Shown here one piece after another: positions 9,457-26,352 of a DNA stretch of 49,325 nucleotides. The notes under the pieces were generated by a model. It had not been told where the DNA came from, searched no databases, and was given only the letters and a program-made list of their open reading frames with translations. Each line of letters begins with the position of its first letter. The stretch's first letter is position 1. A program made the position numbers and the translations under genes. Source of the DNA: a virus; the IMG/VR virus record IMGVR_UViG_3300008111_000063, positions 1-49,325 of that record. One strand, 5' to 3'.

Positions 9457-9863
9457 TATTTAATCTTTTTTGTTATTTCTTCAATCTCTATTTCAATATC
9501 CGTAATTCTTTCTTTGTTTTTTGCATCAACTTCATCAATAGTTTCTTCTAATTGAGAAAACAATTGTGCTTTCTCTTGCTCACTTAACCAACCATCTTCA
9601 CCAATACCCTTTGCTTCTGCTGCAGCAAGTCTTTGTGCAATAGTTGCCATCTTAATTAAGTGTTCATCATTTTTAACTGATACTTCGATAAGGTCTTTTA
9701 TGATTGGGGCAATAACTGTTGCTTCACCAACGTTCTTAATTAATTTCCTCAATGATTCAATTAAATCGGAAATGTTTTTCTTTTTGTTTTGTTGGTTTTC
9801 GTATATATCTCTAAATAATGATGATAGATTTTTACCATCAAATAGTTGAAATTCTGAACTCAT
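9456..9863 (-). CDS. Hypothetical helical protein of the baseplate operon
   Basis: The product has 135 residues and is almost entirely predicted helix, with a Glu/Lys-rich C-terminus (ITDIEIEIEEITKKIK). An EF-loop-like acidic stretch (GEDGWLSEQEKAQLFSQLEE) sits near residue 95. It overlaps the SGNH hydrolase gene by four bases (ATGA) and the gp5-like gene by one base. An assembly chaperone or small baseplate part is possible. No family was recognised. Confidence 0.75.
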   Translation of the reverse strand: MSSEFQLFDGKNLSSLFRDIYENQQNKKKNISDLIESLRKLIKNVGEATVIAPIIKDLIEVSVKNDEHLIKMATIAQRLAAAEAKGIGEDGWLSEQEKAQLFSQLEETIDEVDAKNKERITDIEIEIEEITKKIK

Positions 9864-10627
9864 AATATCACATTCTTTACTATATAATTATAAAATTCTT
9901 CACTTATTAGATTATATCCCAATTCGTTTGGATGTTGAGCCGGATTTTTTGTAATCATTTTTTCATCTTCAAAGCAATCTGTTTTGGTTTCTATTAAAAA
10001 ATCTTTAAATGTTTTTTTCATAAAATTCCAATATACAGATTTATCAATTAAGTGTGTAATATCATCCTTTGAATCCAAATCAACAATCATTTTGTCAAAA
10101 GCATCTGCCATTATCCATTTCACACCATAATATTCAAATAACTTTTGTAAAAATATTATATAATTTTGATTAACAATATTATAATAGTTTTGATTAAACA
10201 TTTGGTTTAAAAAAAATGATTTATATTCTGATAGGAATAAATCGTAATTAGAATTATTGCTTTTATAAGAATTTATAAACTTTTCAGGTAAATTAATTAG
10301 ATGTTTTACAGACCAACTAACCCATTGTTGTCTTGGTAAAAATGCAGCGTAATCTCTTAAAGATGAACTCCATAATACAATTACAAAATCACCTCTCTTA
10401 ACCCTACCATTCGTAACATCATCTATAATTTGATTAAATATTACTGCGTTTGGATTTCCACTTTTACCATTATTAATCCAACTCAATCCTAATTTGTTTC
10501 CTAACAGTTTTACCCAAGAGTGTTGATTTCTATATATGATTAAATCCTGATTTTTTAATTTGGATTCTTCATTTAAATTACATCCTTCACCTTCGGTCCA
10601 ACTATCACCGTAAGCATGTAATATCAT
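9860..10627 (-). CDS. SGNH/GDSL-type hydrolase
   Basis: The product has 255 residues. Block I is at the N-terminus (YGDSWTEGEG, Ser nucleophile in GDSW), the block III-like GxxN region follows (NNGKSGNPNAVI), and the C-terminal His block is HPNELGYNLISEEFYNYI. Enzymes of this fold remove acyl groups from sugars, lipids or cell-wall polymers. It overlaps the carbamoyltransferase gene by one base, so the pair is probably functionally linked, for example in adding and removing glycan substituents. A second SGNH gene lies at 25744-26352. The substrate is unknown. It could also act on host surface glycans as part of the tail. Confidence 0.85.
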   Translation of the reverse strand: MILHAYGDSWTEGEGCNLNEESKLKNQDLIIYRNQHSWVKLLGNKLGLSWINNGKSGNPNAVIFNQIIDDVTNGRVKRGDFVIVLWSSSLRDYAAFLPRQQWVSWSVKHLINLPEKFINSYKSNNSNYDLFLSEYKSFFLNQMFNQNYYNIVNQNYIIFLQKLFEYYGVKWIMADAFDKMIVDLDSKDDITHLIDKSVYWNFMKKTFKDFLIETKTDCFEDEKMITKNPAQHPNELGYNLISEEFYNYIVKNVIL

Positions 10628-12327
10628 TACTTATAAATTATAAAATTATTAATTACTAAAACATCCATATCACAATTTAGGAATGTCCATATTGCTTTAT
10701 CTGGATCATTTGTCATTGTGTGGTCTTTTAAATTAAATGACGTATTTAAAAGTATAGGGGTACCTGTTAGTTTTTCAAACTCTTTCAATAATTTATAATA
10801 TAAAGGGTTTTGTTCTTTTGTTACAGTCTGTATTCTTGCACTATTATCAATATGTGTTACGGATGGAATTGGTATTTGTGAAACTACTTTTACAACTTGA
10901 TTCATATATGGTACATCACCTTCGGAACTAAAATATTTTTGATAATCTTCTTGTGTTACTGATGGAGCAAATGGTCTAAACATTTCTCTTTTTTTGACAA
11001 CTTTATTAATTTTATCTCTAATATCTGGAAGATGTGGATTACCCAATATAGAACGATTGCCCAATGCTCTTGCACCGAATTCAGTTCTACCTTGAAACCA
11101 ACCAACTATTTTTCCATTTTTTACATATTTTGCAATTATTTGGCATAAACGTTCTTCATCAGGTGCAACTTCAACACATAATTTTTTATTTTGCTTTACA
11201 ATATCTCCGACTTTAATATTCCATTCTGGTCCTAAATATGGTGATTGATTATCCCCACCATGTACTTTTGGATTACCTAATGTAATATGCCAATGCCACA
11301 AACATGCGCCAATTGCAGAACCTGCATCCGATGGCGCAAATGGTATCCATACATTTTTAAAAGTTGTATGATGTTTTATTTTACCGTTTGCTGTTCCGTT
11401 ATATGCACATCCACCACCCAATACTAAATTCTCACTATTCCAATTACTATTTACTCTGTTTAAAATAAAATAAAATTGAGATTCATACCAGCTTTGCAAT
11501 GCTGCGGCTAAATCTTTATGATGTTGTTCAATTGATTCACCTTTAAAACGGGGTGGAAATCCTATTAATGAAATCAAATTCATATTAAACATATCCGTTT
11601 CTGATGTGCGATATGTGAAATATTTTTGGTTTATGTTTACTAAATCAGCAAGCCTTTCATAATACGTTATTTTATCAAACACATGTTGATATTTTGAACT
11701 ATCCCCATATGGTGCTAATCCCATAACTTTATACTCACCTTCATTTGGTTTAAATCCTAAATAAGCAGTTAATGCAGAATATACCAATCCCAATGAATTC
11801 GGAAAATTTAATGATGTTATTTTATGAAATTTATTATTTCTAATATAGCATGCTAAAAGTGTTTCATTTTCACCTACTCCATCAATTGATACACCAATTG
11901 CATCATCAAATGGTGATGTGTAATATGAAAATGCTAAATGAGATAGGTGGTGTTTTGTATATAGTATTTCACCTGTATATCCGATGGTTTCTAAAAGGCC
12001 TTGTAAATTACCTTCGGTTTCATTCCATCTTTTTTCAAATGCTCTCCATTGTGGAAACCATCTTCTCAATGGAAACCATTTAGAACCTATTTGATTTTCA
12101 ACTCTTTTAAATTTTAGGTCAGGAGATTCATACCAACAAACCATATCAACTTCATCGATTGTTATTTTTCCAAATTCTAAAACCCATTGGATTGCCTTAA
12201 ACGGAAAAGAACTATCATGCTTTTCACCGGATAGTTTTTCTTCTTCAATTGCTGCTATAACTTTACCATCAATAACTAATGCTGCAGCTGAATCATGGTA
12301 AAAGCCGGATAAACCTAATTGTATCAT
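10627..12327 (-). CDS. Carbamoyltransferase (NodU/CmcH/TobZ family)
   Basis: The product has 566 residues. It begins with the family signature (LGLSGFYHDSAAALVIDGKV) and then HHLSHLAFSYYTSPFDDAIG and SIDGVGENET, the Kae1-like ATP and metal region. Next are GGGCAYNGTANGKI and the C-terminal YrdC-like hallmark GRTEFGARALGNRSILGNP, ending with LLNTSFN. The family uses carbamoyl phosphate and ATP to O-carbamoylate sugars or antibiotics. Full length and all motifs suggest an active enzyme. It lies next to an SGNH hydrolase and near the late sigma gene. Related genes are known in T4-like marine phages. The acceptor (glycan, virion protein or nucleotide) cannot be read from sequence. Confidence 0.93.
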   Translation of the reverse strand: MIQLGLSGFYHDSAAALVIDGKVIAAIEEEKLSGEKHDSSFPFKAIQWVLEFGKITIDEVDMVCWYESPDLKFKRVENQIGSKWFPLRRWFPQWRAFEKRWNETEGNLQGLLETIGYTGEILYTKHHLSHLAFSYYTSPFDDAIGVSIDGVGENETLLACYIRNNKFHKITSLNFPNSLGLVYSALTAYLGFKPNEGEYKVMGLAPYGDSSKYQHVFDKITYYERLADLVNINQKYFTYRTSETDMFNMNLISLIGFPPRFKGESIEQHHKDLAAALQSWYESQFYFILNRVNSNWNSENLVLGGGCAYNGTANGKIKHHTTFKNVWIPFAPSDAGSAIGACLWHWHITLGNPKVHGGDNQSPYLGPEWNIKVGDIVKQNKKLCVEVAPDEERLCQIIAKYVKNGKIVGWFQGRTEFGARALGNRSILGNPHLPDIRDKINKVVKKREMFRPFAPSVTQEDYQKYFSSEGDVPYMNQVVKVVSQIPIPSVTHIDNSARIQTVTKEQNPLYYKLLKEFEKLTGTPILLNTSFNLKDHTMTNDPDKAIWTFLNCDMDVLVINNFIIYK

Positions 12328-13287: not shown

Positions 13288-13923
13288 TTATACTATTTCA
13301 TATCCTTTTAAAAAATAATCGTTTGCTTTTTTGTATTTAACCTCAACCATATCTCCATCTGGTGATTTCATTACAACTTTATCATTTCTACCATATGTTT
13401 GTTTATTAACAACCGTTGTAGTATAAACTCTATCTTTAATTGTAAAACCATCCAAATGGTCAATTTCATGTTGAACAATTACGGTCATCATTGTCTCTTT
13501 TGAAACCTGCTCACCCTGTCTATCACCTTCTGGATTAATCTCAAATGTCATTTCACCCATATTATCTGTATCAACTACAACTTTACAGGCTCTGATTGTT
13601 CTGATTGGTTTTTCTATTGTTCTTGGAATTGAAAGACATCCTTCATAAAAAAGAAATCCCTCATTAGATTTTTCTTTAATAACAGGGTTTAATAGGAATA
13701 AATCTTCATCACCAAATTGAATTAAACATGCTCTTTTTTTAATACCCAATTGAGTTGCTGATATTCCCAAACCAGGATGTTGTTTTAATCCTTGTTCTAA
13801 TTGTTCTCTTAATTGGTCTGCTTCTTGTTGTGTAATTTCTGTTTTAGGACATGGTGTTTTTAGATATTCTCTAAATTCTTTTGTTTCAAATCCTTTGCTG
13901 TTTTTGTCAACTACTAATTTCAT
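13288..13923 (-). CDS. def: Peptide deformylase
   Basis: The product has 211 residues. All three motifs are present: motif 1 GLGISATQLG (residues 51-60), motif 2 EGCLSIP with metal-binding Cys96, and motif 3 QHEIDHLDG with His152, Glu153 and His156. The enzyme removes the N-formyl group from nascent proteins. Phage versions in marine T4-like phages are active and thought to speed protein maturation during infection. This one has an additional C-terminal tail of about 45 residues beyond the catalytic helix, longer than the minimal phage forms. It overlaps the DUF2061 gene by four bases. Confidence 0.95.
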   Translation of the reverse strand: MKLVVDKNSKGFETKEFREYLKTPCPKTEITQQEADQLREQLEQGLKQHPGLGISATQLGIKKRACLIQFGDEDLFLLNPVIKEKSNEGFLFYEGCLSIPRTIEKPIRTIRACKVVVDTDNMGEMTFEINPEGDRQGEQVSKETMMTVIVQHEIDHLDGFTIKDRVYTTTVVNKQTYGRNDKVVMKSPDGDMVEVKYKKANDYFLKGYEIV

Positions 13924-14132
13924 TGTTGTTTTTTTAATCCGTATTTTATAAATTTATACCAAATTCTTTCATGTAGAAAGTAAATGATTGGTTTTATTAT
14001 TAATTCACCCAATCCTACCATTCCTGCCCATTTTATGGGTAGGCCAGCAAATAGAGTGAGTATAATTGTAGTTATAGTTCCAATAAAACGATAACTAATA
14101 CTTTTTACTATATGTCTTTTAACTAGTGGCAT
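13920..14132 (-). CDS. DUF2061 small membrane protein
   Basis: The product has 70 residues. The start (RHIVKSISYRFIGTITTIIL) followed by GLGELIIKPIIYFLHERIWY is the DUF2061 signature: two membrane segments with a conserved Glu/Lys-Pro turn and an aromatic C-terminus. Function is unknown; the domain is often linked to sulfur-assimilation kinases or lies alone in phage genomes. It overlaps the nucleotidyltransferase gene by 14 bases and the deformylase gene by four bases, so it is within a coupled operon. Confidence 0.88.
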   Translation of the reverse strand: MPLVKRHIVKSISYRFIGTITTIILTLFAGLPIKWAGMVGLGELIIKPIIYFLHERIWYKFIKYGLKKQQ

Positions 14133-14493
14133 ACTCTATAACATCTCCGTTTGTATCCATATAACCTTCTCTAATCTTTGTTCCACTAATCATTTCAATA
14201 TCAGCTGGTGGTGGGTGGTTAATAACTTCATATCCAACACCTCTACCATAGTTTACACTTTCAATATCAGGGATGATACTAATAAGAATTTTATCTGAAT
14301 TTTCAATAAAGAATTTTTCTTTTGATAAATCTATTAGGACTTGTTGTGCGGTTTTTGGATTATTTTCATCAACTTCTACATCTCTAATTGCTACCCAAAC
14401 ATTTTTACCCTTATTTAGTTGCTGATTAATCAACCATTCATGTCCGGCATGCCATGTTTGCCATCTGCCAATGTATAATGCGTATTTTTTCAT
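14119..14493 (-). CDS. Nucleotidyltransferase of the HxGH superfamily (NMN or cytidylyl type)
   Basis: The product has 124 residues. The phosphate-binding motif is GRWQTWHAGHEWLI (His15 and His18) and the second nucleotide-binding motif is ISGTKIREG near residue 100. This is the adenylyl/cytidylyltransferase fold. At about 125 residues it is shorter than full NMN adenylyltransferases (about 170), and lacks a long C-terminal helix. The likely reaction is joining a nucleoside triphosphate to a phosphorylated small molecule; NAD synthesis is one possibility. It sits between UvdE and DUF2061. Confidence 0.82.
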   Translation of the reverse strand: MKKYALYIGRWQTWHAGHEWLINQQLNKGKNVWVAIRDVEVDENNPKTAQQVLIDLSKEKFFIENSDKILISIIPDIESVNYGRGVGYEVINHPPPADIEMISGTKIREGYMDTNGDVIEYATS

Positions 14494-14494
14494 A

Positions 14495-15382
14495 TTATAT
14501 AAATTTTAAAATTGCTAATTCTTTTGCTTTTGCTTCAACCATAATATCAATATCCAATCCGTATGTATTTGGTAATTGATTAATGTATAATGAGTGAGCT
14601 TGTGGTTTTTCCTTTGGATTATTTTCGTGCAATGCTTTTGATTCGGAATAATGAACTTCTTGCGTAATACCTTTAGGCCAAGTAGTTGCTGCAAGTTTGA
14701 GTGCTTGTTCTTCTGAAAGGTCACCTGTACAAAATTGGTGGTGATGATAATCAAATACAATCGGAATACCGGTCTTTTGATGAATATACATTAAATCCTT
14801 AACAGAGTACATAGAACCCTTATCATCATTCTCAATTGTAAGCCTCTTTTTAACCGAATTAGAACACTTATTAAAGTTGGTGATAAATCTATCCATTGCA
14901 CTCTGTTTATCTCCGTAAACCCCATTACAATGAATATTAATGTTATTGTATGGTGTTTTAGATAACCCCATCATATCAAATATCTTACCATGTAGTTCCA
15001 AATCCGCAATCGTATTGTTTACAACGGTTTCATTTGGTGAAGTAAGTACACAAAACGGACCAGGATGCGAATTTATACGCATATTGTGAAATTTAGCAAA
15101 ATCACCTGCTTTTTTGAGTTCTCTCTTAATTTCTTTGTAATCTTTGAGTTGAGTCAAATCAATATGGTCACCCCACGGAATGATTGCAGAAGATAATCGG
15201 AAGAAATAGATACCATTTAGCCTATTCCACTCCAATATTTTGATAATATCCGATGCATTTTTAAGTGCAAGTTCGGAAACATAATCTAATCCCTTAGCTT
15301 CAAAGGTTTTTTTAATCATAGCACGGTTTGTAGAAACCTGCTTACCCATACTCATATTAATACATGCATATCCTATATTCAT
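14495..15382 (-). CDS. uvdE: UV damage endonuclease UvdE
   Basis: The product has 295 residues. The N-terminus MNIGYACINMS and the segment LEWNRLNGIYFFRLSSAIIP are family signatures. Metal-ligand motifs of the TIM barrel follow: INSHPGPFCVL, NINIHCNGVYGDK, LTIENDDKGSMYSV, IVFDYHHHQFC and EVHYSES. The enzyme nicks DNA 5' of pyrimidine dimers and abasic sites. It is rare in phages, where T4-type endonuclease V is more usual. A near-perfect Bacteroidota promoter ends just before the ATG (box 15388-15395), predicting a leaderless or 0-3 base-leader mRNA. Confidence 0.95.
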   Translation of the reverse strand: MNIGYACINMSMGKQVSTNRAMIKKTFEAKGLDYVSELALKNASDIIKILEWNRLNGIYFFRLSSAIIPWGDHIDLTQLKDYKEIKRELKKAGDFAKFHNMRINSHPGPFCVLTSPNETVVNNTIADLELHGKIFDMMGLSKTPYNNINIHCNGVYGDKQSAMDRFITNFNKCSNSVKKRLTIENDDKGSMYSVKDLMYIHQKTGIPIVFDYHHHQFCTGDLSEEQALKLAATTWPKGITQEVHYSESKALHENNPKEKPQAHSLYINQLPNTYGLDIDIMVEAKAKELAILKFI

Positions 15383-16785: not shown

Positions 16786-16815
16786 AATCTACGAAAAATA
16801 ACTGAATTAACCAAC
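16784..16815 (-). promoter_or_regulatory. Promoter-like element overlapping the hsp20 terminator
   Basis: GTTG (16815-16812), 20 bases containing AGTTATTTTTCG, then TAGATTAA (16791-16784). The 14 bases before and into the box are nearly the same as in the uvdE promoter. The -33 part lies in the end of the hsp20 coding region and the start site would fall inside the terminator stem. It may be an attenuated promoter for 16553-16729 and 15423-16553, or a decayed copy. Confidence 0.45.
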
Positions 16816-17202
16816 TTTTATGGTTAATTTTTTTGGTTTGGACTCTTCTTTTCTTTCTACTACGATTGATAAGATACCATTTTTAATTTCTGCTTTTGCA
16901 TTTCTACCGTCCAAATCCTTACCCAATGTAATTGTTTCATTAATGTTTGCAATCAATTGGTCTACTGCTGTTTTTTCATCTTTACTTTCCTTTTTAGCTA
17001 CCACTTCAATTTTATCTTCATAACAATTAATCTCTACACTTTTAGGGTCGTGACCTAAAACGGATAGAGCGATGAATGCTTTATCATCTTTTACTTCAAC
17101 TGCAAATTTAGATGGTACAAATGTAGTTGAATGATTTTTCCAAATTGGAGAAGTAGTTTCAAATAATGAATCAAAAACCTTGTCGAAATTTGTGTAATAC
17201 AT
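16807..17202 (-). CDS. Small heat shock protein, Hsp20 family
   Basis: The product has 131 residues. The alpha-crystallin domain covers about residues 30-125: FAVEVKDDKAFIALSVLGHD, then NCYEDKIEVVAKKE, ending with the hallmark AEIKNGILSIVV (the A-x-x-x-n-G-v-L motif). It is an ATP-independent holdase; related genes are common in T4-like marine phages and may help fold virion proteins. The C-terminal IxI motif appears as LTIKV. It has its own terminator downstream. A 73-base AT-rich leader separates it from the HD gene, with only a poor promoter match. Confidence 0.92.
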   Translation of the reverse strand: MYYTNFDKVFDSLFETTSPIWKNHSTTFVPSKFAVEVKDDKAFIALSVLGHDPKSVEINCYEDKIEVVAKKESKDEKTAVDQLIANINETITLGKDLDGRNAKAEIKNGILSIVVERKEESKPKKLTIKVG

Positions 17203-17953: not shown

Positions 17954-17985
17954 CTAATATACGAAAAATATTCGAAATTATCAAA
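17954..17985 (-). promoter_or_regulatory. Promoter for the HD gene (TTTG-N20-TATATTAG)
   Basis: Minus strand: TTTG (17985-17982), 20 bases ending AATATTTTTCG, TATATTAG (17961-17954). The -33 box lies over the end of the upstream oxygenase gene. Confidence 0.75.
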
Positions 17986-18550
17986 TAATTGTTATAATCT
18001 TTTTATGTGATGGCCAGGCATTTATTGAGTATCTACTGCCCGATTCTACTTCTTCAATCATGTGTGGTACATTACAATCAAATACAAATATACTACCTGC
18101 TTTTTTAGGAACAACATACTCTATATTATTTATTTTATATTTTATATCCCCCCCTATGTAATCATCATTTAATTGTAGAATAATAGTTATTGTTCCTGCA
18201 TTTTTTATTTCTTGCATATCAGAATGCCATTTTAAAAAATCACCACTACCATATTTGTTAAATGTATACTTATCGCACACGGTATATAGTGTTGATTTAA
18301 ATGGCGATAATTTATTTGATATTTCTATTATCTTCGATGATAAATTTTTAATTGTTTTTTGGTGTTTTTCTTTATTTGTGAAATAATATCCTTTTCTTTT
18401 TAAGAAATTTGAATTATGATTTTTTAACGGATTTCCCCCATTATCAAATGATGTTGATTGCATATCAATCAAATTACAAGATAACCCAAAATTAATAAGT
18501 TCGGTACATTCATCTAATGATATAAAGTTTTCTATATATTCGTTGAACAT
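17981..18550 (-). CDS. 2OG-Fe(II) oxygenase (prolyl 4-hydroxylase-like), copy A
   Basis: The product has 189 residues. The double-stranded beta-helix metal triad is His109-x-Asp111 (LKWHSDMQE) and His163 (NVPHMIEE), with Arg173 (GSRYSINAW) to bind 2-oxoglutarate. The LQLNDDYIGGDIKY strand between them is typical of P4H-type phage enzymes. All key residues are present, so it is probably active. It lies last in a run of modification genes. Likely reaction: hydroxylation of a protein side chain or other acceptor. Three further members lie at 19076, 19639 and 20683. Confidence 0.9.
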   Translation of the reverse strand: MFNEYIENFISLDECTELINFGLSCNLIDMQSTSFDNGGNPLKNHNSNFLKRKGYYFTNKEKHQKTIKNLSSKIIEISNKLSPFKSTLYTVCDKYTFNKYGSGDFLKWHSDMQEIKNAGTITIILQLNDDYIGGDIKYKINNIEYVVPKKAGSIFVFDCNVPHMIEEVESGSRYSINAWPSHKKIITII

Positions 18551-18554
18551 TTTA

Positions 18555-19076
18555 TTAAATTATTTTAGATTTATTTTTTGTTTCTATTTTTTTAAAAAAT
18601 ACCGATGTTTCTGTCGCTGTACCATCTTCTCTTTCGTATGGAAAATCTGTACAATAGTAATTCTCTCGTAAGAACCTATATGCATCAACATTCCAAGTAC
18701 CATTATCCAAAACTATAATTGAATCATTTTTTTTATATTCATCTATTAGTTTAGCAAAAATACTTCTTGATATGTGTGTCGGATTATTATCTATTAAAAA
18801 AATATCAGCTGACTTAATTAATTCTATAAATTCTTTATTTTGTAAAATAGATTTATCAAACATTGATAATTTTACATTAGAGATTATTTTATCTTTTAAT
18901 AAAGAATCTATTTTTAAAAACCACTCAACATTATCTTCAAAAGAATAAACAAATTTAAAATGCTTTGAAAAAAATAAAGTAGAATACCCTGAACCGATTT
19001 CTATAATTACATTATTTTTAAAATCGTTTTGTGTAATCCAACTTACAAAATTTTTAGATAATTTTGAATTATCCAT
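18555..19076 (-). CDS. SAM-dependent methyltransferase-like protein
   Basis: The product has 173 residues. The glycine-rich SAM loop is VIIEIGSGYSTLFFSKHF (residues 23-40). An acidic strand-2 residue is seen in YSFEDNVEW, and a motif-IV-like strand is ADIFLIDNNPTH. The C-terminal strand is ETSVFFKK. The E-x-GSGYST form occurs in small-molecule and sugar methyltransferases. Its ATG overlaps the stop of the upstream oxygenase gene by one base. Substrate unknown; it could methylate a sugar or amino acid made by its neighbours. Confidence 0.82.
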   Translation of the reverse strand: MDNSKLSKNFVSWITQNDFKNNVIIEIGSGYSTLFFSKHFKFVYSFEDNVEWFLKIDSLLKDKIISNVKLSMFDKSILQNKEFIELIKSADIFLIDNNPTHISRSIFAKLIDEYKKNDSIIVLDNGTWNVDAYRFLRENYYCTDFPYEREDGTATETSVFFKKIETKNKSKII

Positions 19077-19642
19077 TATATAAGTGTTTTTTTGTAATTA
19101 TTAATAGGTTTTAAATTAAACCAACTAACCAGAGAATATCTTATACCAGATTCTACTGGGCTAACTCTATGATTAATATCAGATAAAAAAACAAATAAAT
19201 TCCCGATTCCGTTTTCAAATGTTGTAATACCTTCTATTTCATCAATTTTCATTTGTAAATCTCCGCCTGTATAATCGGTGTTTAATTGAATAACTATTGA
19301 ACAATATCTTTTAGCATATTCACCCTCTGGCGAAGAATCGGTATGCCAGTTATAATATTCACCAACTTTATATTCCGTAAACTGAAATGGTGCACCATCA
19401 AAATTTATTTCGTAACCTTTTAATTTTATTTTTTCTGAAATTTTTTCTACTAATCTTGCTTTTAAAAATGGAAAAATATTATCATAATTTGCAAAAGAAA
19501 TAGATGACTTTCTATAATTTTCATCTATCACATCGTTCATTATCTTTCCGGGTTTTAAATCTAAATTTTTTAAAGAAAAGTTTAAAATTTTATTACATTC
19601 ATCTATTGATAGAAATTCTTTTATTGTAAAATAATTAATCAT
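19076..19642 (-). CDS. 2OG-Fe(II) oxygenase, copy B
   Basis: ATG at 19642 is preferred to an ATG further upstream because it forms an ATGA overlap with the preceding stop (19641-19639); this gives 188 residues starting MINYFTIKEF. The triad is His100-x-Asp102 (YNWHTDSSPEG), His158 (DINHRVSPV) and 2OG-binding Arg168 (GIRYSLVSW). The strand LNTDYTGGDLQM links them. It is similar in plan to copy A (shared [L]N-D-Y-x-GGD and GxRYS), and the two probably arose by duplication with strong divergence. Confidence 0.9.
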   Translation of the reverse strand: MINYFTIKEFLSIDECNKILNFSLKNLDLKPGKIMNDVIDENYRKSSISFANYDNIFPFLKARLVEKISEKIKLKGYEINFDGAPFQFTEYKVGEYYNWHTDSSPEGEYAKRYCSIVIQLNTDYTGGDLQMKIDEIEGITTFENGIGNLFVFLSDINHRVSPVESGIRYSLVSWFNLKPINNYKKTLI

Positions 19643-20238
19643 ATGAGTTTTGTATTTATTGTTTTTTCTATTAAGTTGCAGTTTATAACGCATTTATCTT
19701 CGTTTTTTGATGGAACACCGGCGTGAGGTATTAATCCATCAAATATCAAAATTCTGTTTTCAACACAATCTACTTTTTGAAGTATTTCGGTTTTATCATC
19801 GTTATATAACAAAGTATATCCATTATTTGTATTAATATAAAATATATAAGAGGTATGTTCGGTTTGTCTATCTAGATGGATTGCATTAATAATATCGGTA
19901 TCGGTAAAGGTTTGTGCTTTTGTTAAATTTATTTTAGTTCTCAATGTATAAACGTATTTTTTACTAGTCTTTTGTTCTACACAACTTTTTATTTCATCGA
20001 TAATTGATAATATTTTTTTATCAATCTGTATGTTTTCACTTGGGATTGATATAACAAAACCAGCACCAACTTTTGTTTCAATTAATGATGGAGATTTAAA
20101 AAACCTTTCACCTTTAGAACCTACTATTTTTTCTAAATAAAACCATTCTAATTCATCTTGTCCTTTTAAAAAGTATTCTTGTAAGGTTTTTAAAGATTCT
20201 TTATTCAAAATATCATCATATACTTTATACTCTTTCAT
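19639..20238 (-). CDS. 2OG-Fe(II) oxygenase-like protein, copy C (variant)
   Basis: ATG at 20238 is chosen because it follows the upstream stop directly (TAATATG), giving 199 residues from MKEYKVYDDI. The metal triad is His121-x-Asp123 (AIHLDRQTEH) and His172 (LIPHAGVPS). The position normally held by the 2OG-binding Arg appears to be Lys182 (NEDKCVINC). It lacks the GGD strand signature of copies A, B and D and resembles the phage HxD...H group with the NNGYTLLYND turn. The Lys substitution may alter co-substrate binding. Confidence 0.8.
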   Translation of the reverse strand: MKEYKVYDDILNKESLKTLQEYFLKGQDELEWFYLEKIVGSKGERFFKSPSLIETKVGAGFVISIPSENIQIDKKILSIIDEIKSCVEQKTSKKYVYTLRTKINLTKAQTFTDTDIINAIHLDRQTEHTSYIFYINTNNGYTLLYNDDKTEILQKVDCVENRILIFDGLIPHAGVPSKNEDKCVINCNLIEKTINTKLI

Positions 20239-20239
20239 A

Positions 20240-20683
20240 TTATTTGTAATAACCAATACTTTTTATTATATCAATAATTGCATAATTCCACTCATTTACT
20301 TCTACGTGTATAGTATCATAATCTATTAGCATATAATCTGTTACGTTTTTGTAAAACCAATACGGACTAAATGCTGGCCTTTTTTCTTTTTTTGTAACAT
20401 ACAAATTATATCCAAAACAATCATTTTCATTAATTTTTTTAAACCAAACATATCCAATTGATGTGTTTTTGTAATATAATAAAAATGCCGTTTCTTTATT
20501 TTCAATTCTTTTATTTACATCCTGTATTGTAAACATCTCCGGCCATTTATATTCCAAATTAAAAAAATCTATTAGTTTGGTAAATTCTAATAAATCGGAA
20601 TTTGATATTGAATTACTTATTTTTTTTATTTTAAGTTGAGATTCTTTTATTTTTTTATTATGTGATATTTTAAAATTTTCCAT
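20240..20683 (-). CDS. GNAT-family N-acetyltransferase
   Basis: The product has 147 residues. The central strands (AFLLYYKNTSIGYVWFKKI) followed by GYNLYVTKKEKRP and the C-terminal VEVNEWNYAIIDIIKSIGYYK reproduce the GNAT beta4-alpha-beta5 pattern with the late N-x-A...GY/F segment. The R/QxxGxG/A pyrophosphate loop is degenerate (KKEKRPAFSPYW), so acyl-CoA binding is less certain. It lies between two oxygenase genes. It could acylate an amino sugar or a protein amine. Confidence 0.72.
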   Translation of the reverse strand: MENFKISHNKKIKESQLKIKKISNSISNSDLLEFTKLIDFFNLEYKWPEMFTIQDVNKRIENKETAFLLYYKNTSIGYVWFKKINENDCFGYNLYVTKKEKRPAFSPYWFYKNVTDYMLIDYDTIHVEVNEWNYAIIDIIKSIGYYK

Positions 20684-21189
20684 TATATAAGACTTTTTTC
20701 TTTTGCAAAATCTTTATCAAAATCAAAAAACATTACCATACTATATCTTTTTCCAATTGTAACGGGTAAAACTCTATGTAGTACATTTTTTGAGATTAGG
20801 ACTGCGCTGTTGGTTATGGGTTTATATTTTTTTATATCTTCTACAATATTAGAGTTTATATACTCTAGCTCACCACCAACGTAATCATCGTTTAAATACA
20901 TTATTAATGAAAAATCGGCCACATCGTAATGGAATGCATCTTCTTTATTTCCTCTATTATCAACAACATTTATCCAACTAGCCGTATGTTTACATTTTAT
21001 ACCATAGTTATTTTTGATAATATTTAATATATTTTCTATAATTTCTTTCTTTAAATTAATTGGCGTTCTTTTGTAGGAACTTCTACCAGAAACGGGTTCC
21101 ATTAACGTAGCATCATCAATAGATTTGCAAAACTTATTAAGATGTTCTATATCATTTTTATCTAAAATATTATCAATATACTTAACCAT
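20683..21189 (-). CDS. 2OG-Fe(II) oxygenase, copy D
   Basis: The product has 168 residues. The triad is His87-x-Asp89 (DAFHYDVADF) and His138 (NVLHRVLPV), with Arg148 (GKRYSMVMFF). The strand YLNDDYVGGELEY is like copies A and B. The ATG overlaps the GNAT stop by one base on the other side, so the cluster is coupled. The N-terminal helix carries GRSSYKRTPIN, which may contact the substrate. Full set of catalytic residues. Confidence 0.9.
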   Translation of the reverse strand: MVKYIDNILDKNDIEHLNKFCKSIDDATLMEPVSGRSSYKRTPINLKKEIIENILNIIKNNYGIKCKHTASWINVVDNRGNKEDAFHYDVADFSLIMYLNDDYVGGELEYINSNIVEDIKKYKPITNSAVLISKNVLHRVLPVTIGKRYSMVMFFDFDKDFAKEKSLI

Positions 21190-21190
21190 T

Positions 21191-22474
21191 TTATATTAAC
21201 TTTTTTATATCTTTACTATTTTTTAGGATAACACCCTGTAATAATAAATCTAAAAAAGAATTTTCTTTATAGATTTTTTCTATTAATAAAGAATGGACTT
21301 TATCTGTCCATAGTTTACATAGTGTATAATTTTCTTCATAATTTTCCATAAATTTTTTTACAAATTGAACAAATTTATCATTCTTCCCTCTGTACTCAAT
21401 AGCTTCTTTGTAAAATGGATGTTCCTCTATTCCTGTTATTTCTTTTAAAATTTCATACGGATATGTGTGAGTAGATATAAATGGTATTTTACCTAAAACA
21501 AATCCATAAGTTTTTTCTGACAAATAATTTGAAGCATATTGAACAGGCAACCAATCCCATGATTCACTTAATATGTGCATTTTGGCCTGTGGTAATATTC
21601 GCATCATATATTCTAAATAGTGTTCTATATTTTCTATATAAGAAATATCATCCCAATTATCCGTGCCCCATTTATTTAAATTTATATTTTTATTGTTTTT
21701 TATTTGAGTTGAATTTACATCATAATCTATATTTTGACAATTATCTGTTCTACTTAAATAAATTTCTTTATTGTTCAGCTTTGCGATATCATCTATTATA
21801 TCTATTCTATTTTTTTTATGATTTCTAACGGAAAAACATAATTTATATGGTTGATTTAATTTTTCGAAAATGTTTGCAAATTCATAATACCAACGTATTG
21901 AAAGTAATTCATTCCATTGAAACATTGTATTTGTAGCTATGAAATTATGATTTGGATAATGTATCGATTCTACCGATTTATCAATAAAAAAATTATCACT
22001 AAATATCCAATGGTTTTTTAATCTTCTAATTTGATATTCTAAATCCTTTACGGGTGCATATTTTAGCATTTCTGCTTCTATAAAACTTTTTTCTGTTCTC
22101 ATAATAGAAATTAACCAACCTTTTCTATTTTGAACGTTATCAGCTAACCATTTCATTATTGGAATATCATTAACACCAAATTGGCCACCACCCCTATGTG
22201 CCGTTAATCCTTTTTCTTTGTTTATACAATCTATTTCAGTATAATCTTTCCAATCAAACATTTGATAATTTATTGTTAAAAAATCTATCAAATGATATCC
22301 ATCTTCGGCATCGTGTAATTCTGGATTGAAAACTAATTCAAATTTTTTATCATTGTAATCACATAAAATAGTACCAATGTTGTTTTTTATATTAGATACT
22401 CGATTTATTGTATTATGAAATAACTTTAAAAATAAAGAACGAGAATAAAAATGGTGTATGTATATTTTAATCAT
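21191..22474 (-). CDS. Glycosyltransferase-like protein
   Basis: The product has 427 residues. Near residue 305-340 it carries SESWDWLPVQYASNY, then LSEKTYGFVLGKIPFIS and YEILKEITGIEEHPF. This E...SEKT...PFI pattern is that of GT-B type enzymes (as in GT10-like fucosyltransferases and related phage proteins), where it binds the nucleotide sugar. The N-terminal half is unfamiliar (LTAHRGGGQFGVNDIPIMKW). The same pattern recurs in 40273-41331. It overlaps the sulfotransferase gene by one base. Donor and acceptor unknown. Confidence 0.68.
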   Translation of the reverse strand: MIKIYIHHFYSRSLFLKLFHNTINRVSNIKNNIGTILCDYNDKKFELVFNPELHDAEDGYHLIDFLTINYQMFDWKDYTEIDCINKEKGLTAHRGGGQFGVNDIPIMKWLADNVQNRKGWLISIMRTEKSFIEAEMLKYAPVKDLEYQIRRLKNHWIFSDNFFIDKSVESIHYPNHNFIATNTMFQWNELLSIRWYYEFANIFEKLNQPYKLCFSVRNHKKNRIDIIDDIAKLNNKEIYLSRTDNCQNIDYDVNSTQIKNNKNINLNKWGTDNWDDISYIENIEHYLEYMMRILPQAKMHILSESWDWLPVQYASNYLSEKTYGFVLGKIPFISTHTYPYEILKEITGIEEHPFYKEAIEYRGKNDKFVQFVKKFMENYEENYTLCKLWTDKVHSLLIEKIYKENSFLDLLLQGVILKNSKDIKKLI

Positions 22475-23277
22475 TAAAATAGTTTTTTAGTAAAATAACT
22501 TTTTTCAAATTTATTCCATATCCAATCCCTTAATTTCTGGTCCTCTTTTATATCCATTTGTGGATATGCATAATTTATTTGATTGTCTTTTCCTATTTTT
22601 ATATCCGTATCATATTTACTTTTTATTAATTCTTCAAATTTATATAGTTCGTATATATCAAATTCATAAGTTGGTTTGTATCCACTTTTCCATGCTTCTT
22701 GTGAATCAAATACTCTCCAATTAATATAAATGTTATCTTTCATCATATTTTCTATGATATATTTTTTATTATAATTCATTGAATATTTTTCTATCAATGG
22801 TACTATTATTTTTGATTTCATTTTTTTATCAAATTCAAAATTTTTATCATTTTGTATCATAGATTTTATACAATCTATTATTTCATCTGTAAAATATTCG
22901 TAAATAAAATCATTTGTTATTTTATTTGGAATGTAACTTAATCCATATGCTTCCTTTACCCAGTGTCCAAATATATAATAAACTCCACTCAAAAATCGTT
23001 TACAGTAATCTCTTTTTATTGTTATAGTATTTACTTTACTACCTAAAAAAGTATACACTTCAGAAATAGATTGATGTCTGTGTGTTTTTATTTTTGTGTA
23101 TGTGACTTCTTTACCGTGAATTGATGGCATTACATATCCGTTACCAAATAAATCATTTGCATCATCTTTAAATGTTGGTTCTATTTTTAAATCTGCTTTT
23201 TCAAATGCTAAATGTACAGAAATACTGGCGCATTTGGGAATTGATATAAATACAATATCATTTTCAATTAACATCAT
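22474..23277 (-). CDS. Sulfotransferase-like protein
   Basis: The product has 267 residues. The 5'-phosphosulfate loop is IPKCASISVHLAFE (residues 13-26), as in carbohydrate and type-2 sulfotransferases. The 3'-phosphate site is TIKRDYCKRFLSGVYY (Arg-Asp...Arg...Ser). A His-rich segment KTHRHQSISE sits between. The enzyme would move sulfate from PAPS to a hydroxyl or amine, probably a sugar. It is the first gene after a clear promoter and leads the modification cluster. Two start codons (23277, 23274) are adjacent; the promoter predicts a leaderless message. Confidence 0.85.
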   Translation of the reverse strand: MMLIENDIVFISIPKCASISVHLAFEKADLKIEPTFKDDANDLFGNGYVMPSIHGKEVTYTKIKTHRHQSISEVYTFLGSKVNTITIKRDYCKRFLSGVYYIFGHWVKEAYGLSYIPNKITNDFIYEYFTDEIIDCIKSMIQNDKNFEFDKKMKSKIIVPLIEKYSMNYNKKYIIENMMKDNIYINWRVFDSQEAWKSGYKPTYEFDIYELYKFEELIKSKYDTDIKIGKDNQINYAYPQMDIKEDQKLRDWIWNKFEKSYFTKKLF

Positions 23278-23280
23278 AAC

Positions 23281-23311
23281 CTAATATACTAAAAATAATT
23301 GAATTTACAAA
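23281..23311 (-). promoter_or_regulatory. Promoter of the modification cluster (TTTG-N19-TATATTAG)
   Basis: Minus strand: TTTG (23311-23308), 19 bases ending TTATTTTTAG, TATATTAG (23288-23281). The last base of the box is four bases from the ATG at 23277, so the transcript should be leaderless or nearly so. The -33 box overlaps the last codons of 23305-23637. Confidence 0.75.
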
Positions 23312-23637
23312 AGTGTTTTTTTATTTTTTTGAGTTGAAGACCATAACTCATCATCAACTTCTTTCCATTTACCCAATGGACACTCATTAAATGTTTTTGT
23401 AAATATTTTTTTCTTTAGTGGACATCCACAATCATTGCAATATGGGTCGCCCGTCACATCTCTTTGCGCACGAAACTCTGGACATTGAATACAGATGTTC
23501 CACCTAGCCTCAGCCAATTCTTTTTGAAATTTTGTAGGATTGGATGCTGTAATCCATGCATCTGCTATTGTAACTATTTTGGATGGGTCTTTAACTAACC
23601 CACTTATTATTTTTTTAATACCCAAATCCATAACCAA
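23305..23637 (-). CDS. Small zinc-ribbon-like protein
   Basis: The product has 110 residues. Cysteines at 49, 52, 67, 70, 72 and 86 (CIQCPEF, CNDCGCPL, ECPLGKW) suggest one or two zinc sites. The N-terminal 45 residues are helical (LGIKKIISGLVKDPSKIV), then FQKELAEARWNIC. Small Cys-rich proteins with CxxCGCPL...CPLGKW occur in T4-like marine phages. A role in nucleic acid or protein binding is likely; function unknown. A second start, Met3, is equally possible. Confidence 0.78.
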   Translation of the reverse strand: MVMDLGIKKIISGLVKDPSKIVTIADAWITASNPTKFQKELAEARWNICIQCPEFRAQRDVTGDPYCNDCGCPLKKKIFTKTFNECPLGKWKEVDDELWSSTQKNKKTLL

Positions 23638-23796: not shown

Positions 23797-25710
23797 TTAA
23801 TTTATTTTTTTAAATTGAACATCTATTTTATTATAATCTACCATTAATAAACCATCTTCTGGGTTTATCATTAAAGCATGTTCAAATGCTGTTCCTATCA
23901 ATTCATTACCCATAACACCTTCATATAATCCATCTTCTCCCTTATAGGTATATTGATAAATATTTATACCACCATTTGATTTACCAATCAATTTTATATT
24001 TTCTTTATGAGCGATATCCGATTTAACATAGTTACAATATCCTGCACTTTGGCATATACTTGGTACAGGAAATTCACCACATGGATATGCATTACAATAA
24101 AATGAACCGGCTATGCATGGTGGATATCCAGGTGCACCACATCTACAACATTCTACATTTGCCCAGCTTGCACCGGAACCATTTCCACATTCATAACAAA
24201 ATATACAGTTTGCGGTAATTGATTTACAATCAAACGTATAGTTGTGAGTTAATAAACCATATCTCAATCCACCCTCTTCCGAAGTTAGGAATAGGTCTAA
24301 TTCTTCAAAATTTACAGCATAAACTTCTATTTCATCATATGAGTATGTTATTGTTTGAATAGTTTTTTCTATTAAAGAATTTGTTTGTGAATCAAATAGT
24401 ATAAGTGTATCATTTGGTTTTAAATCCATATATTGTGTAAATTTCACAACATAATCCGATGAACTACCACTTTCTAATTCTTTTTTCAAAATCATAGCAT
24501 GACTAACATCTGAAAATTTAGTTCCACCCTCACATTCTATGTTCCAGAAAAATCCAACGTAATTTTCTCTTTTTACTATGTTTGTTAATTGAGATGAACT
24601 TACTTCAAAATTGTTTATCAAATTAGTAAATGATCCTGACCAATTTTGTAAATTTACGGTGTTTTCGACCATAGGTAAATCAGGTATTGTAATAGATTTT
24701 ACCGTATCGTTTTGATTTAATGATGATAATAGTGTTAATGTATTATCTGGTAAAAATACCTTCGTACTTGTATCGGCAGATACTTTTGGTGCTTTTTCAC
24801 CATTATTGTATTTGTAAAAATATTTAGGTCTTTCCCAAATAGGTATTTTATTATCATCATCTAAATCACATATGTTATCCAAATCAAATGCATTAGAAAA
24901 CTGTACGGACCATAGATTTAAAACATCTAAATTTGAACCATAGACTAAATCAACACTTCTATAATGTGTTAGTTTACCGTCTAATAAATCGGAATCATTT
25001 AATATGTACTCTTGAATATATTCATCATCTGCTAATCCACTTTTTAAAACATTCAATTCTTCTATTGTATTTATTTTATATAATTTTGGATGTATATGAT
25101 TATCGGCAGGGGTTATTCTTTTCTTAATCATATAGTTAGGATGGACACCATTATCTCTTAAAGTTGTTCCAATAGAATCAAATCCTAATTCCGAATCATT
25201 GATATATGTAGCTGGAATAGATGTTGGGTTTGAATCATGCATTAATTTAAGAAATTCCCAATTATCTCTTGCGTAGGTATCATCTATTAATGCGGTAACA
25301 TCATATGCTATACGGATAATCAATTTATTGTCCGAATCTTCAATATAAGGAATGGTCATTGAATTCGCATCTAATACGATATTGTTAAACGTAAATCCTT
25401 TAGATTGACAATAATATTCTATCATTTGTGAAAACATCTTTCGGTTATTATCATCAATTGAACTTCCTGAAATTGTATTTTCTGATTCCGGAGTTAATTC
25501 TATTTCCGAAACATATCCACCTCTTAAATTTCTTTTATTGATTAGGTGTACTTCATTTATTTGGGTTCCTGCAACTATTTGCTCTAACACATTAACATCA
25601 AAGTAATATCTCAAATCCACTGCCGGATGTATATTGGTATTAGTTTCTATGGCTTTGAATGAACCATCAGTATCTCTTACAAAATCTGTTCCTGTTAGTA
25701 CTGCTCTCAT
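23797..25710 (-). CDS. Multidomain virion-like protein: ATP-grasp-like N-part, Cys-rich segment, S74-type chaperone tail
   Basis: The product has 637 residues in three parts. Residues 1-230 contain strings that resemble ATP-grasp elements: TDFVRDTDGSFKAIETNTN (the D...dG...E-N metal-binding strand) and YMIKKRITPADNHIHPKLYK with EYIQEYIL. Residues 495-559 hold 12 cysteines (CIFCYECG, ECCRCG). Residues 564-637 match peptidase S74 intramolecular chaperones: SDIAHKENIKLIG (Ser564, Lys569), INIYQYTYKG, YEGVMGNEL, LLMVDYNKIDV. S74 domains trimerise fibres and then cut themselves off. The order of ATP-grasp strings is unusual, so that part is tentative; the S74 call is firm. Probably a tail spike or fibre. 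Confidence 0.82.
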   Translation of the reverse strand: MRAVLTGTDFVRDTDGSFKAIETNTNIHPAVDLRYYFDVNVLEQIVAGTQINEVHLINKRNLRGGYVSEIELTPESENTISGSSIDDNNRKMFSQMIEYYCQSKGFTFNNIVLDANSMTIPYIEDSDNKLIIRIAYDVTALIDDTYARDNWEFLKLMHDSNPTSIPATYINDSELGFDSIGTTLRDNGVHPNYMIKKRITPADNHIHPKLYKINTIEELNVLKSGLADDEYIQEYILNDSDLLDGKLTHYRSVDLVYGSNLDVLNLWSVQFSNAFDLDNICDLDDDNKIPIWERPKYFYKYNNGEKAPKVSADTSTKVFLPDNTLTLLSSLNQNDTVKSITIPDLPMVENTVNLQNWSGSFTNLINNFEVSSSQLTNIVKRENYVGFFWNIECEGGTKFSDVSHAMILKKELESGSSSDYVVKFTQYMDLKPNDTLILFDSQTNSLIEKTIQTITYSYDEIEVYAVNFEELDLFLTSEEGGLRYGLLTHNYTFDCKSITANCIFCYECGNGSGASWANVECCRCGAPGYPPCIAGSFYCNAYPCGEFPVPSICQSAGYCNYVKSDIAHKENIKLIGKSNGGINIYQYTYKGEDGLYEGVMGNELIGTAFEHALMINPEDGLLMVDYNKIDVQFKKIN

Positions 25711-25743: not shown

Positions 25744-26352
25744 TTAAATAATCTTTGTAATCGGTTCTGGTATCGTATTTATCGGAATTAAGTTTAATTT
25801 TTTTATTATTTCCCTTGCCATATGTGAACAACCTTTTATATTTGGATGGCCAAAATCATCCCATACAAATCCGGCTTTTATCATACTCAACCTATCAAAA
25901 TACAAAAATTTATTCCAATCAACTTTATTATAAATATTTAATTTTTTTACAGAATCATCTAACCCAAAATAATCAATAAATAAGTAGGGATATCCCATTT
26001 TAATTAGAAACTCTTGTATACAATATATGTAATGCAATGTGTGTTTAGATGCCATAGGTTCTAATTTTGGATTTAAATTAGTATGGTCACTTACTGTCAC
26101 ATACCATTCTTTATTATCAACGCATTGGTGAACTCGTCTATATGGTGAACTCCATTGTATTATTACCAAATCCGGTACAGGTTTTAAATTTATCAAACTT
26201 TCTAATGATTTGTGAAATATCCAATCATTACCAACTGAAGGTCGGGCATCATTCATCCAGCCTGACTTTAGGGAATCAGCAAGTATTTCAGTATAATGCG
26301 TTTCAATCCCATAACCAGAACTTATTGAACATCCATTTGAGTATATAAACAT
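25744..26352 (-). CDS. SGNH-type hydrolase, second copy
   Basis: The product has 202 residues. Block I is SNGCSISSGYGIE (Ser in place of the usual GDSL Ser, after NGC), a mid block is DLVIIQWSSPYRRVHQ, and the C-terminal block is DDFGHPNIKGCSHMAREI, with Asp and His at the expected DxxH-like place. It resembles 9860-10627 in plan (IxxWSSxxR; HPN.xG) but is shorter. Both may belong to a phage-specific SGNH subfamily. It precedes the spike-like protein gene, so a glycan O-acyl esterase acting on the tail or host surface is plausible. Confidence 0.8.
   Translation of the reverse strand: MFIYSNGCSISSGYGIETHYTEILADSLKSGWMNDARPSVGNDWIFHKSLESLINLKPVPDLVIIQWSSPYRRVHQCVDNKEWYVTVSDHTNLNPKLEPMASKHTLHYIYCIQEFLIKMGYPYLFIDYFGLDDSVKKLNIYNKVDWNKFLYFDRLSMIKAGFVWDDFGHPNIKGCSHMAREIIKKLNLIPINTIPEPITKII

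Follow-up and report, generated by a model that had tools for sequence, protein, structure and literature searches.

Why would a virus line up eight genes for four different 2-oxoglutarate (2OG) oxygenases, a sulfotransferase, a glycosyltransferase-like protein, an acetyltransferase-like (GNAT) protein and an S-adenosylmethionine (SAM) methyltransferase-like protein, and which molecule would all of them modify? The question is raised by positions 17981-23277 of the window, that is, the whole stretch analysed here, 49,325 bases of an IMG/VR virus fragment (record IMGVR_UViG_3300008111_000063) with 31% GC. An earlier interpretation made without database searches (the sequence-only reading) had proposed that a single scaffold, perhaps a peptide, a tail-fibre glycan or a host-surface mimic, is modified step by step. 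It did not include four features described here: a C-terminal tag shared by the enzymes, an upstream gene encoding an ATP-grasp/Hint protein, the low GC of the cluster, and tagged genes beyond the interval. We give about an even chance to the view that the cluster supplies the tailoring enzymes of a phage-encoded peptide-maturation island resembling those of ribosomally synthesised and post-translationally modified peptides (RiPPs).

A C-terminal tag shared by unrelated enzymes

All eight genes are on the minus strand and tightly packed, with gaps or overlaps of -1, +1, -1, +1, -4, -1 and +4 bases in the order listed below, in agreement with the eight coupled, same-direction genes described earlier. 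These values include two corrected starts: since relatives of oxygenase B begin at 19642, this is most likely its start, rather than 19693, and that of oxygenase C is most likely 20238, so that an apparent overlap of 55 bases is really one of 4.

22474..23277, minus strand: sulfotransferase-like protein, ending ...FTKKLF (family profile match to heparan sulfate 2-O-sulfotransferase, 4.5e-5)
21191..22474, minus strand: GT-B-like glycosyltransferase, ending ...DIKKLI (predicted template modelling score of the model, pTM, 0.81; Foldseek WaaG/epimerase)
20683..21189, minus strand: 2OG oxygenase D, ending ...KEKSLI (PF13640, 8.8e-10)
20240..20683, minus strand: GNAT-like protein, untagged, ending ...GYYK (profile match to an acetyltransferase, 0.002)
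19639..20238, minus strand: 2OG oxygenase C, the Lys variant, ending ...INTKLI (PHROG 61/274, alignment)
19076..19642, minus strand: 2OG oxygenase B, ending ...YKKTLI (PF13640, 2.5e-13)
18555..19076, minus strand: SAM methyltransferase-like protein, ending ...NKSKII (profile match to SMU.1697c, 2e-4)
17981..18550, minus strand: 2OG oxygenase A, ending ...KIITII (PF13640, 1.4e-11)

Seven of these proteins, all but the GNAT one, end in variants of a short tail with the consensus K-x-x-K-[ST]-L-I-COOH, and in the window the same tag is carried by the genes at 23305, 25744 and 9860. The cluster forms part of a larger hypervariable island, in which this tail is found on enzymes of more than 15 unrelated families. 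Counted with the pattern [KRNST].?[LIVF][LIVF]$, it is present in a first set of loci on 203 of 264 island enzymes versus 35 of 629 other genes, and many of these 35 outsiders are members of island families located elsewhere, such as SGNH genes by the carbamoyltransferase and oxygenases downstream of the HD-domain gene. After the tag had been noticed, 80 loci were fetched around the short form of the ATP-grasp/Hint gene (see below), a few of whose contigs repeat the first set. The tagged fraction is 92-100% at one to three genes from the ATP-grasp/Hint gene, 83-95% at four and about 20% beyond seven; pooled, the counts are 455/550 within four genes, 85/598 beyond seven and 2/171 in relatives free of the island.

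By family, the tag is borne by 67/67 oxygenases, by 57/57 and 46/46 members of the sulfotransferases, by 40/40 f27 oxygenases, 14/14 glycosyltransferases, 13/13 radical SAM proteins, 41/44 zinc-ribbon-like (Zn), 31/33 SGNH and 12/14 halogenase proteins, counts that are not independent trials because proteins within families are related. When proteins are grouped at 50% identity, 81 of 127 clusters near the ATP-grasp/Hint gene are majority-tagged, as against 41 of 249 far from it, and at the family level 17 of 37 as against 15 of 169; counted by cluster, the effect is weaker than when counted by protein, the near clusters including singletons and non-island neighbours.

An artefact of AT-richness or position was rejected on the basis of the far genes, the island-free contigs and an offset control, in which the pattern occurs 455 times in 551 at the exact C-terminus and 4-18 times at offsets 1-9. 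The Leu and Ile codons of the tag follow background use, and an RNA feature was rejected because codons vary. Furthermore, the tag is retained when over 30 bases separate its gene from the next one. Hydrophobic C-termini can act as degrons, and many of the genes overlap through ATATAATG-like junctions, so that the tail could be imagined as a degradation or stability signal, or as a by-product of translational coupling, with no role in recruitment; this we hold to be highly improbable, as the codons vary, the tag persists at non-overlapping ends, and most conserved genes in other parts of these contigs lack it. One short C-terminal signal common to unrelated enzymes is also the hallmark of cargo loading, by which the enzymes would be packed into the virion or a compartment to act on the next host. 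That the carriers cluster at one gene family, the tag being nearly absent without it (the 2/171 above), makes such a function very unlikely in our opinion.

The small Zn protein of the window (23305..23637) belongs to a family that is tagged when the ATP-grasp/Hint protein is present in the contig and almost never when it is not. The UV-endonuclease gene of the window also fits the loose pattern, a match that we attribute to chance (3/41 in its family). From gene neighbourhood and co-absence, on which the link between tag and central protein rests, we infer that the tag would recruit the tailoring enzymes to the ATP-grasp/Hint protein.

The ATP-grasp/Hint protein and its peptide

The domains of this central protein, all encoded on the minus strand, are the following.

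23797..25710, minus strand: whole putative precursor/ligase gene, the upstream neighbour of the cluster
24841..25710, minus strand: circularly permuted ATP-grasp domain, eukaryotic glutathione synthetase-like (residues about 1-290)
24241..24798, minus strand: Hint/intein-like domain (residues about 305-490), ending in His489-Asn490
24022..24240, minus strand: Cys-rich segment (residues 491-563, 12 Cys in 73 residues), the proposed substrate peptide
23797..24021, minus strand: S74-type intramolecular chaperone, SDIAHKENI... (residues 564-637 and stop; PHROG 6121, 5e-9)

In the AlphaFold model of the protein (mean predicted local distance difference test score, pLDDT, 76), the Cys-rich segment is disordered and the N-terminal domain matches yeast glutathione synthase (Foldseek E 9.8e-5, prob 1.00). 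K196 and R251 are invariant in 29 aligned homologues, and D9, E22 and N24 nearly so; the fold, the putative metal-binding D/E/N residues and the putative ATP lysine, with roles assigned by analogy, place the domain in the ATP-grasp superfamily. It does not group with the graspetide synthetases, its nearest fold being glutathione synthetase and the core being rich in Cys and aromatic residues.

The second domain matches hedgehog and intein structures (Foldseek E 3.4e-7) and, in an independent sequence profile, the KlbA intein (1.4e-4). Asn490, preceded by His489, is invariant in the same 29 homologues, and, of the 121 homologues that reach 440 residues, about 120 have the HN pair, L017 having YN; the homologue in L093 is devoid of the N-terminus, hence its earlier HN position. 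Fold and C-terminal His-Asn together make the protein a member of the Hint/intein superfamily. No N-terminal Cys/Ser nucleophile was found in the first Hint domain in the alignment of homologues, and the residue after HN is S, T or C in only 49 of 86 cases, often being Gly, Pro or Ala; splicing is therefore unlikely. By analogy with intein chemistry, C-terminal cleavage through Asn cyclisation is possible.

What follows the HN pair varies: the Cys-rich segment and S74 domain in the window, a patterned peptide in the short form, extra Hint domains, or almost nothing. As for the S74 domain, one homologue (L069) exceeds the Pfam S74 cut-off, and there are BFVD matches at 38-46% identity, one of them named chaperone auto-processing domain. 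In the short form, HN is followed by a peptide of about 30 residues, HN-[SGTAP]-CWCPWNYCGHWCNSNYCPGC, and then a short tail, in most cases with K[LIV] at its end; these peptides, located after the conserved enzyme-Hint part, appear to be patterned like a conserved core. Homologues with extra Hint domains were found at L027:1104-3371, L038:3124-5388, L049:3151-5415 and L066:3157-5403, the first three being accompanied by SET-domain genes and by no sulfotransferase. In addition, large relatives carry in their tail region a separate second protein (L100:2892-4619, L102:2352-4013), encoded after an S74 fibre gene, whose Hint domain ends in SHN-KG and is followed by an apparent lectin-type domain; in L100 its gene precedes a tail-sheath-like gene.

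In the maturation pathway that we propose, the simplest account to take in all the observations, the product of 23797-25710 would be at once precursor and part-enzyme, with ligase domain, Hint domain and Cys-rich peptide in that order. The peptide would be modified by the hydroxylases, the sulfotransferase, the glycosyltransferase and the methyltransferase, to which relatives would add a halogenase, a radical SAM enzyme and a SET methyltransferase. Cyclisation of Asn490 would then cut it free at its N-terminal side and, in the version of the window, the S74 chaperone could cut at its C-terminal side; the product would most probably be displayed on the tail or fibre, as the S74 domain and neighbouring fibre genes suggest, or, with less likelihood, be released. 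A stronger version, which we advance tentatively and hold to be possible though doubtful, is that one ATP-grasp/Hint protein serves as scaffold, ligase and precursor, and that K-x-x-K-[ST]-L-I enrols any enzyme that acquires it, so that phages could exchange chemistry freely and the self-excised peptide would vary combinatorially in its modifications. The ATP-grasp domain may even read, or ligate through, the C-terminus of the tag, by analogy with tubulin tyrosine ligase acting on tubulin. Of the original idea of one modified scaffold, the peptide option gains from a tag on unrelated enzymes centred on a putatively self-cleaving Cys-rich protein, and the polymer targets gain no direct support.

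A hypervariable island and its possible partner genes

The cluster differs from its surroundings in GC (0.22-0.27 versus 0.30-0.34 for flanking genes). Eighty loci fetched with the neighbouring HD-domain gene as anchor were mapped, and they show collinear flanks around a slot, bounded by the small conserved gene f19 and by the HD gene, that holds 0.6 to 9.6 kb of shuffled genes. Among them stand out 2OG oxygenases, two sulfotransferase families, glycosyltransferases, GNATs, SGNH and SIS proteins, and also radical SAM proteins, Trp halogenases and SET-domain and FkbM-type methyltransferases (by Pfam where decisive). The cluster is conserved as a unit only in near relatives (L003, L004, L092); elsewhere its content is shuffled, with position and tag kept. 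Some island-free relatives hold in the slot a class-II aminoacyl-tRNA-synthetase-like gene (L039:5132-5953; tRNA-synt_2, 5e-12), and in some contigs the island is followed by a protein of about 900 residues with an apparent FkbM-like C-terminal part (L109:10050-12770, L116:10705-13431). The strong promoter formerly placed ahead of the cluster is not borne out: sigma70-like sites show no excess over shuffled sequence (76 versus 76.8 expected), and the first gene lies only 27 bases from the preceding one.

Relatives of the ATP-grasp/Hint protein were found in about 100 IMG/VR contigs, the short-form query giving 96 viral contig stretches. The short form has no match in 84,980 prokaryote genomes in a pattern-based scan that detects close relatives only; among 50,697 phage isolates neither the window form nor the short form has a match, nor were homologues of the glycosyltransferase, sulfotransferase or f27 oxygenase found. 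The nearest isolates for the baseplate wedge genes of the window include Microcystis phage Mel-JY01 and Flavobacterium immuto phages; the ATP-grasp/Hint profile (A1) has no match in the genomes of Mel-JY01, immuto, HTVC008M or S-SSM7.

Regarding the enzymes themselves, the HxD...H motif is present in all four oxygenases, accompanied in the alignment by Arg (A, B, D) or Lys (C), as initially reported; A, B and D exceed the cut-off of Pfam 2OG-FeII_Oxy_3 (PF13640), and oxygenase C, with no Pfam match, matches PHROG 274 (5e-29) and PHROG 61 (3e-5). DNA modification was rejected as a role, since their matches are to PF13640 and PHROG 61 and not to a family that modifies DNA, and the gene context gave no sign of it; 2OG/nitrogen signalling, proposed for cyanophages (PMC3037559), was rejected because it leaves the tag unexplained. 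The sulfotransferase, the GNAT protein and the methyltransferase were assigned solely by family profiles against PDB sequences, and the GT-B protein solely by predicted structure. The sulfotransferase has no Pfam match, but the profile similarity listed above agrees with the first assignment, and A17, S18, R89 and S97 are invariant in its family, in keeping with the 5'-phosphosulfate-binding (5'-PSB) loop of PAPS sulfotransferases; the methyltransferase call likewise agrees with its profile. For the GNAT protein the match to an acetyltransferase is in the expected direction and weak. The GT-B-like protein gives Foldseek matches to WaaG and UDP-GlcNAc 2-epimerase (E 3-7e-4); as judged from the model, with TM scores of 0.35-0.45, it likely belongs to the GT-B fold class, a fold that non-hydrolysing epimerases have as well.

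The island is also found in other contexts: in L093 a tail-sheath-like gene is close by, and in L108, L129, L135, L148, L170 and others the island adjoins very large fibre-like genes, running in those five into genes of 1,200-2,200 residues. Together with the S74 chaperone of the window form, typical of fibres, these neighbours would suit enzymes that modify (hydroxylate, sulfate, glycosylate) the phage's own tail fibre or adhesin, the ATP-grasp/Hint/S74 protein being a component of the fibre tip. We regard this as somewhat unlikely, in that tag density is centred on the ATP-grasp/Hint gene rather than on the fibre, the lineage with the HD gene has no adjoining large fibre gene, and an ATP-grasp domain is of no obvious use to a fibre tip.

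Other genes of the window relevant to this scheme, or close to it, are listed here.

25744..26352, minus strand: SGNH-like protein, ending ...ITKII (sequence motif, no Pfam match)
23305..23637, minus strand: small Cys-cluster (zinc-ribbon-like) protein, ending ...KNKKTLL (PHROG 13558, 1e-8)
13920..14493, minus strand: DUF2061 protein (PF09834, 5.6e-13) and HxGH nucleotidyltransferase-like protein (f12)
10627..12327, minus strand: NodU/Nol-type carbamoyltransferase, untagged (PHROG 1601, 8e-118)
9860..10627, minus strand: SGNH/GDSL-like protein adjoining the carbamoyltransferase, ending ...KNVIL (Lipase_GDSL_2, 0.0013, below the curated cut-off)

The order of the UV-endonuclease-like (14495-15382), peptide deformylase (13288-13923) and HSP20-like (16807-17202) genes is kept in most relatives.

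The carbamoyltransferase, about 5 kb from the cluster, may be a partner of the island. In island-free relatives, whole records (one of 176 kb) contain no ATP-grasp/Hint gene, carbamoyltransferase or 2OG-FeII_Oxy_3 domain, an absence that is not proof because the records are fragments. In a tree built from conserved proteins, the island and the carbamoyltransferase show two changes each, together except in L018, a co-loss that is suggestive and involves few events. In turn, the sulfotransferase and f12 occur together in 36 cases and are both missing in 6, with 1 sulfotransferase without f12; five independent pairs agree in direction (p about 0.06). An adenosine-5'-phosphosulfate (APS) kinase adjoins f12 in L054, which fits a supply of 3'-phosphoadenosine-5'-phosphosulfate (PAPS), and the DUF2061 and HxGH proteins, which are missing where there is no sulfotransferase, may form a compact module for sulfate activation.

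GT-B, sulfotransferase, carbamoyltransferase, SGNH and SIS-type genes would also suit glycan chemistry, and capsule decoration is one option put forward for a cyanophage cluster with carbamoyltransferases, a halogenase and 2OG enzymes (Iyer et al., 2021, PMC7824862). Nevertheless, decoration of a glycan or host-surface polymer seems to us unlikely: the relatives examined have their sugar-nucleotide and glycan genes, mostly without the tag, in another region, which tells against this part of the sequence-only reading, SET, halogenase and radical-SAM members are better suited to amino-acid side chains, and the Hint protein at the centre is left unexplained.

Several observations weigh against the peptide-maturation island itself. 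L014, L017 and L041 hold almost nothing past the His-Asn position, so that a Cys-rich core is not universal, and in some homologues (e.g., L027, L038) extra full Hint domains replace the Cys-rich peptide. The GNAT protein and the carbamoyltransferase are untagged, and the co-loss of the latter with the island amounts to two tree events only. L018 has the ATP-grasp/Hint gene with neither 2OG-FeII_Oxy_3 domain nor carbamoyltransferase in a 41-kb fragment. Finally, clustering at one locus would also fit a general insertion hot spot.

Comparison with known systems

Searches of open-access full texts gave no description of ATP-grasp combined with Hint domains in phages, of phage RiPPs or of the C-terminal tag. 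The layout of the island matches no described system that we found, recruitment coded by a tag being the part for which we know of no precedent. If true, this would be a natural plug-in system, in which a tail of four to seven residues suffices to bring enzymes of any family into a pathway, and it would help in the construction of modified peptides; it could also account for part of the scattered 2OG oxygenases, halogenases and carbamoyltransferases of phages, at present classed as metabolic genes.

The 'second cluster' of the jumbo cyanophage S-SSM6a, predicted in that account to serve a secondary metabolite or polymer decoration, likewise brings carbamoyltransferases, a Trp halogenase, 2OG and other modification enzymes together in a phage (Iyer et al., 2021, PMC7824862). 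It differs in that the C-terminal tag is on 0/11 of its genes and that the passage describing it proposes no precursor, the genome of the related S-SSM7 being without the A1 match, as said above. In borosins the modifying enzyme bears the core peptide at its own C-terminus (PMC8429565, PMC7878506), as proposed here; the enzyme in the window is an ATP-grasp rather than an N-methyltransferase, with an intervening Hint domain and many extra tailoring enzymes. Graspetides also tie an ATP-grasp enzyme to a small peptide (PMC8939145), whereas the domain described here is permuted and like eukaryotic glutathione synthetase, and its fused peptide is rich in Cys and aromatic residues, with few acidic ones.

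With inteins, hedgehog and bacterial intein-like (BIL) domains the central protein shares the Hint fold and the C-terminal His-Asn; it differs in having no N-terminal nucleophile and, often, a residue other than Cys, Ser or Thr after HN, which would allow C-terminal cleavage at most. Short C-terminal signals on unrelated enzymes are familiar from the peroxisomal targeting signal PTS1 and from encapsulin targeting peptides; the tag has another sequence and is found around one phage gene family.

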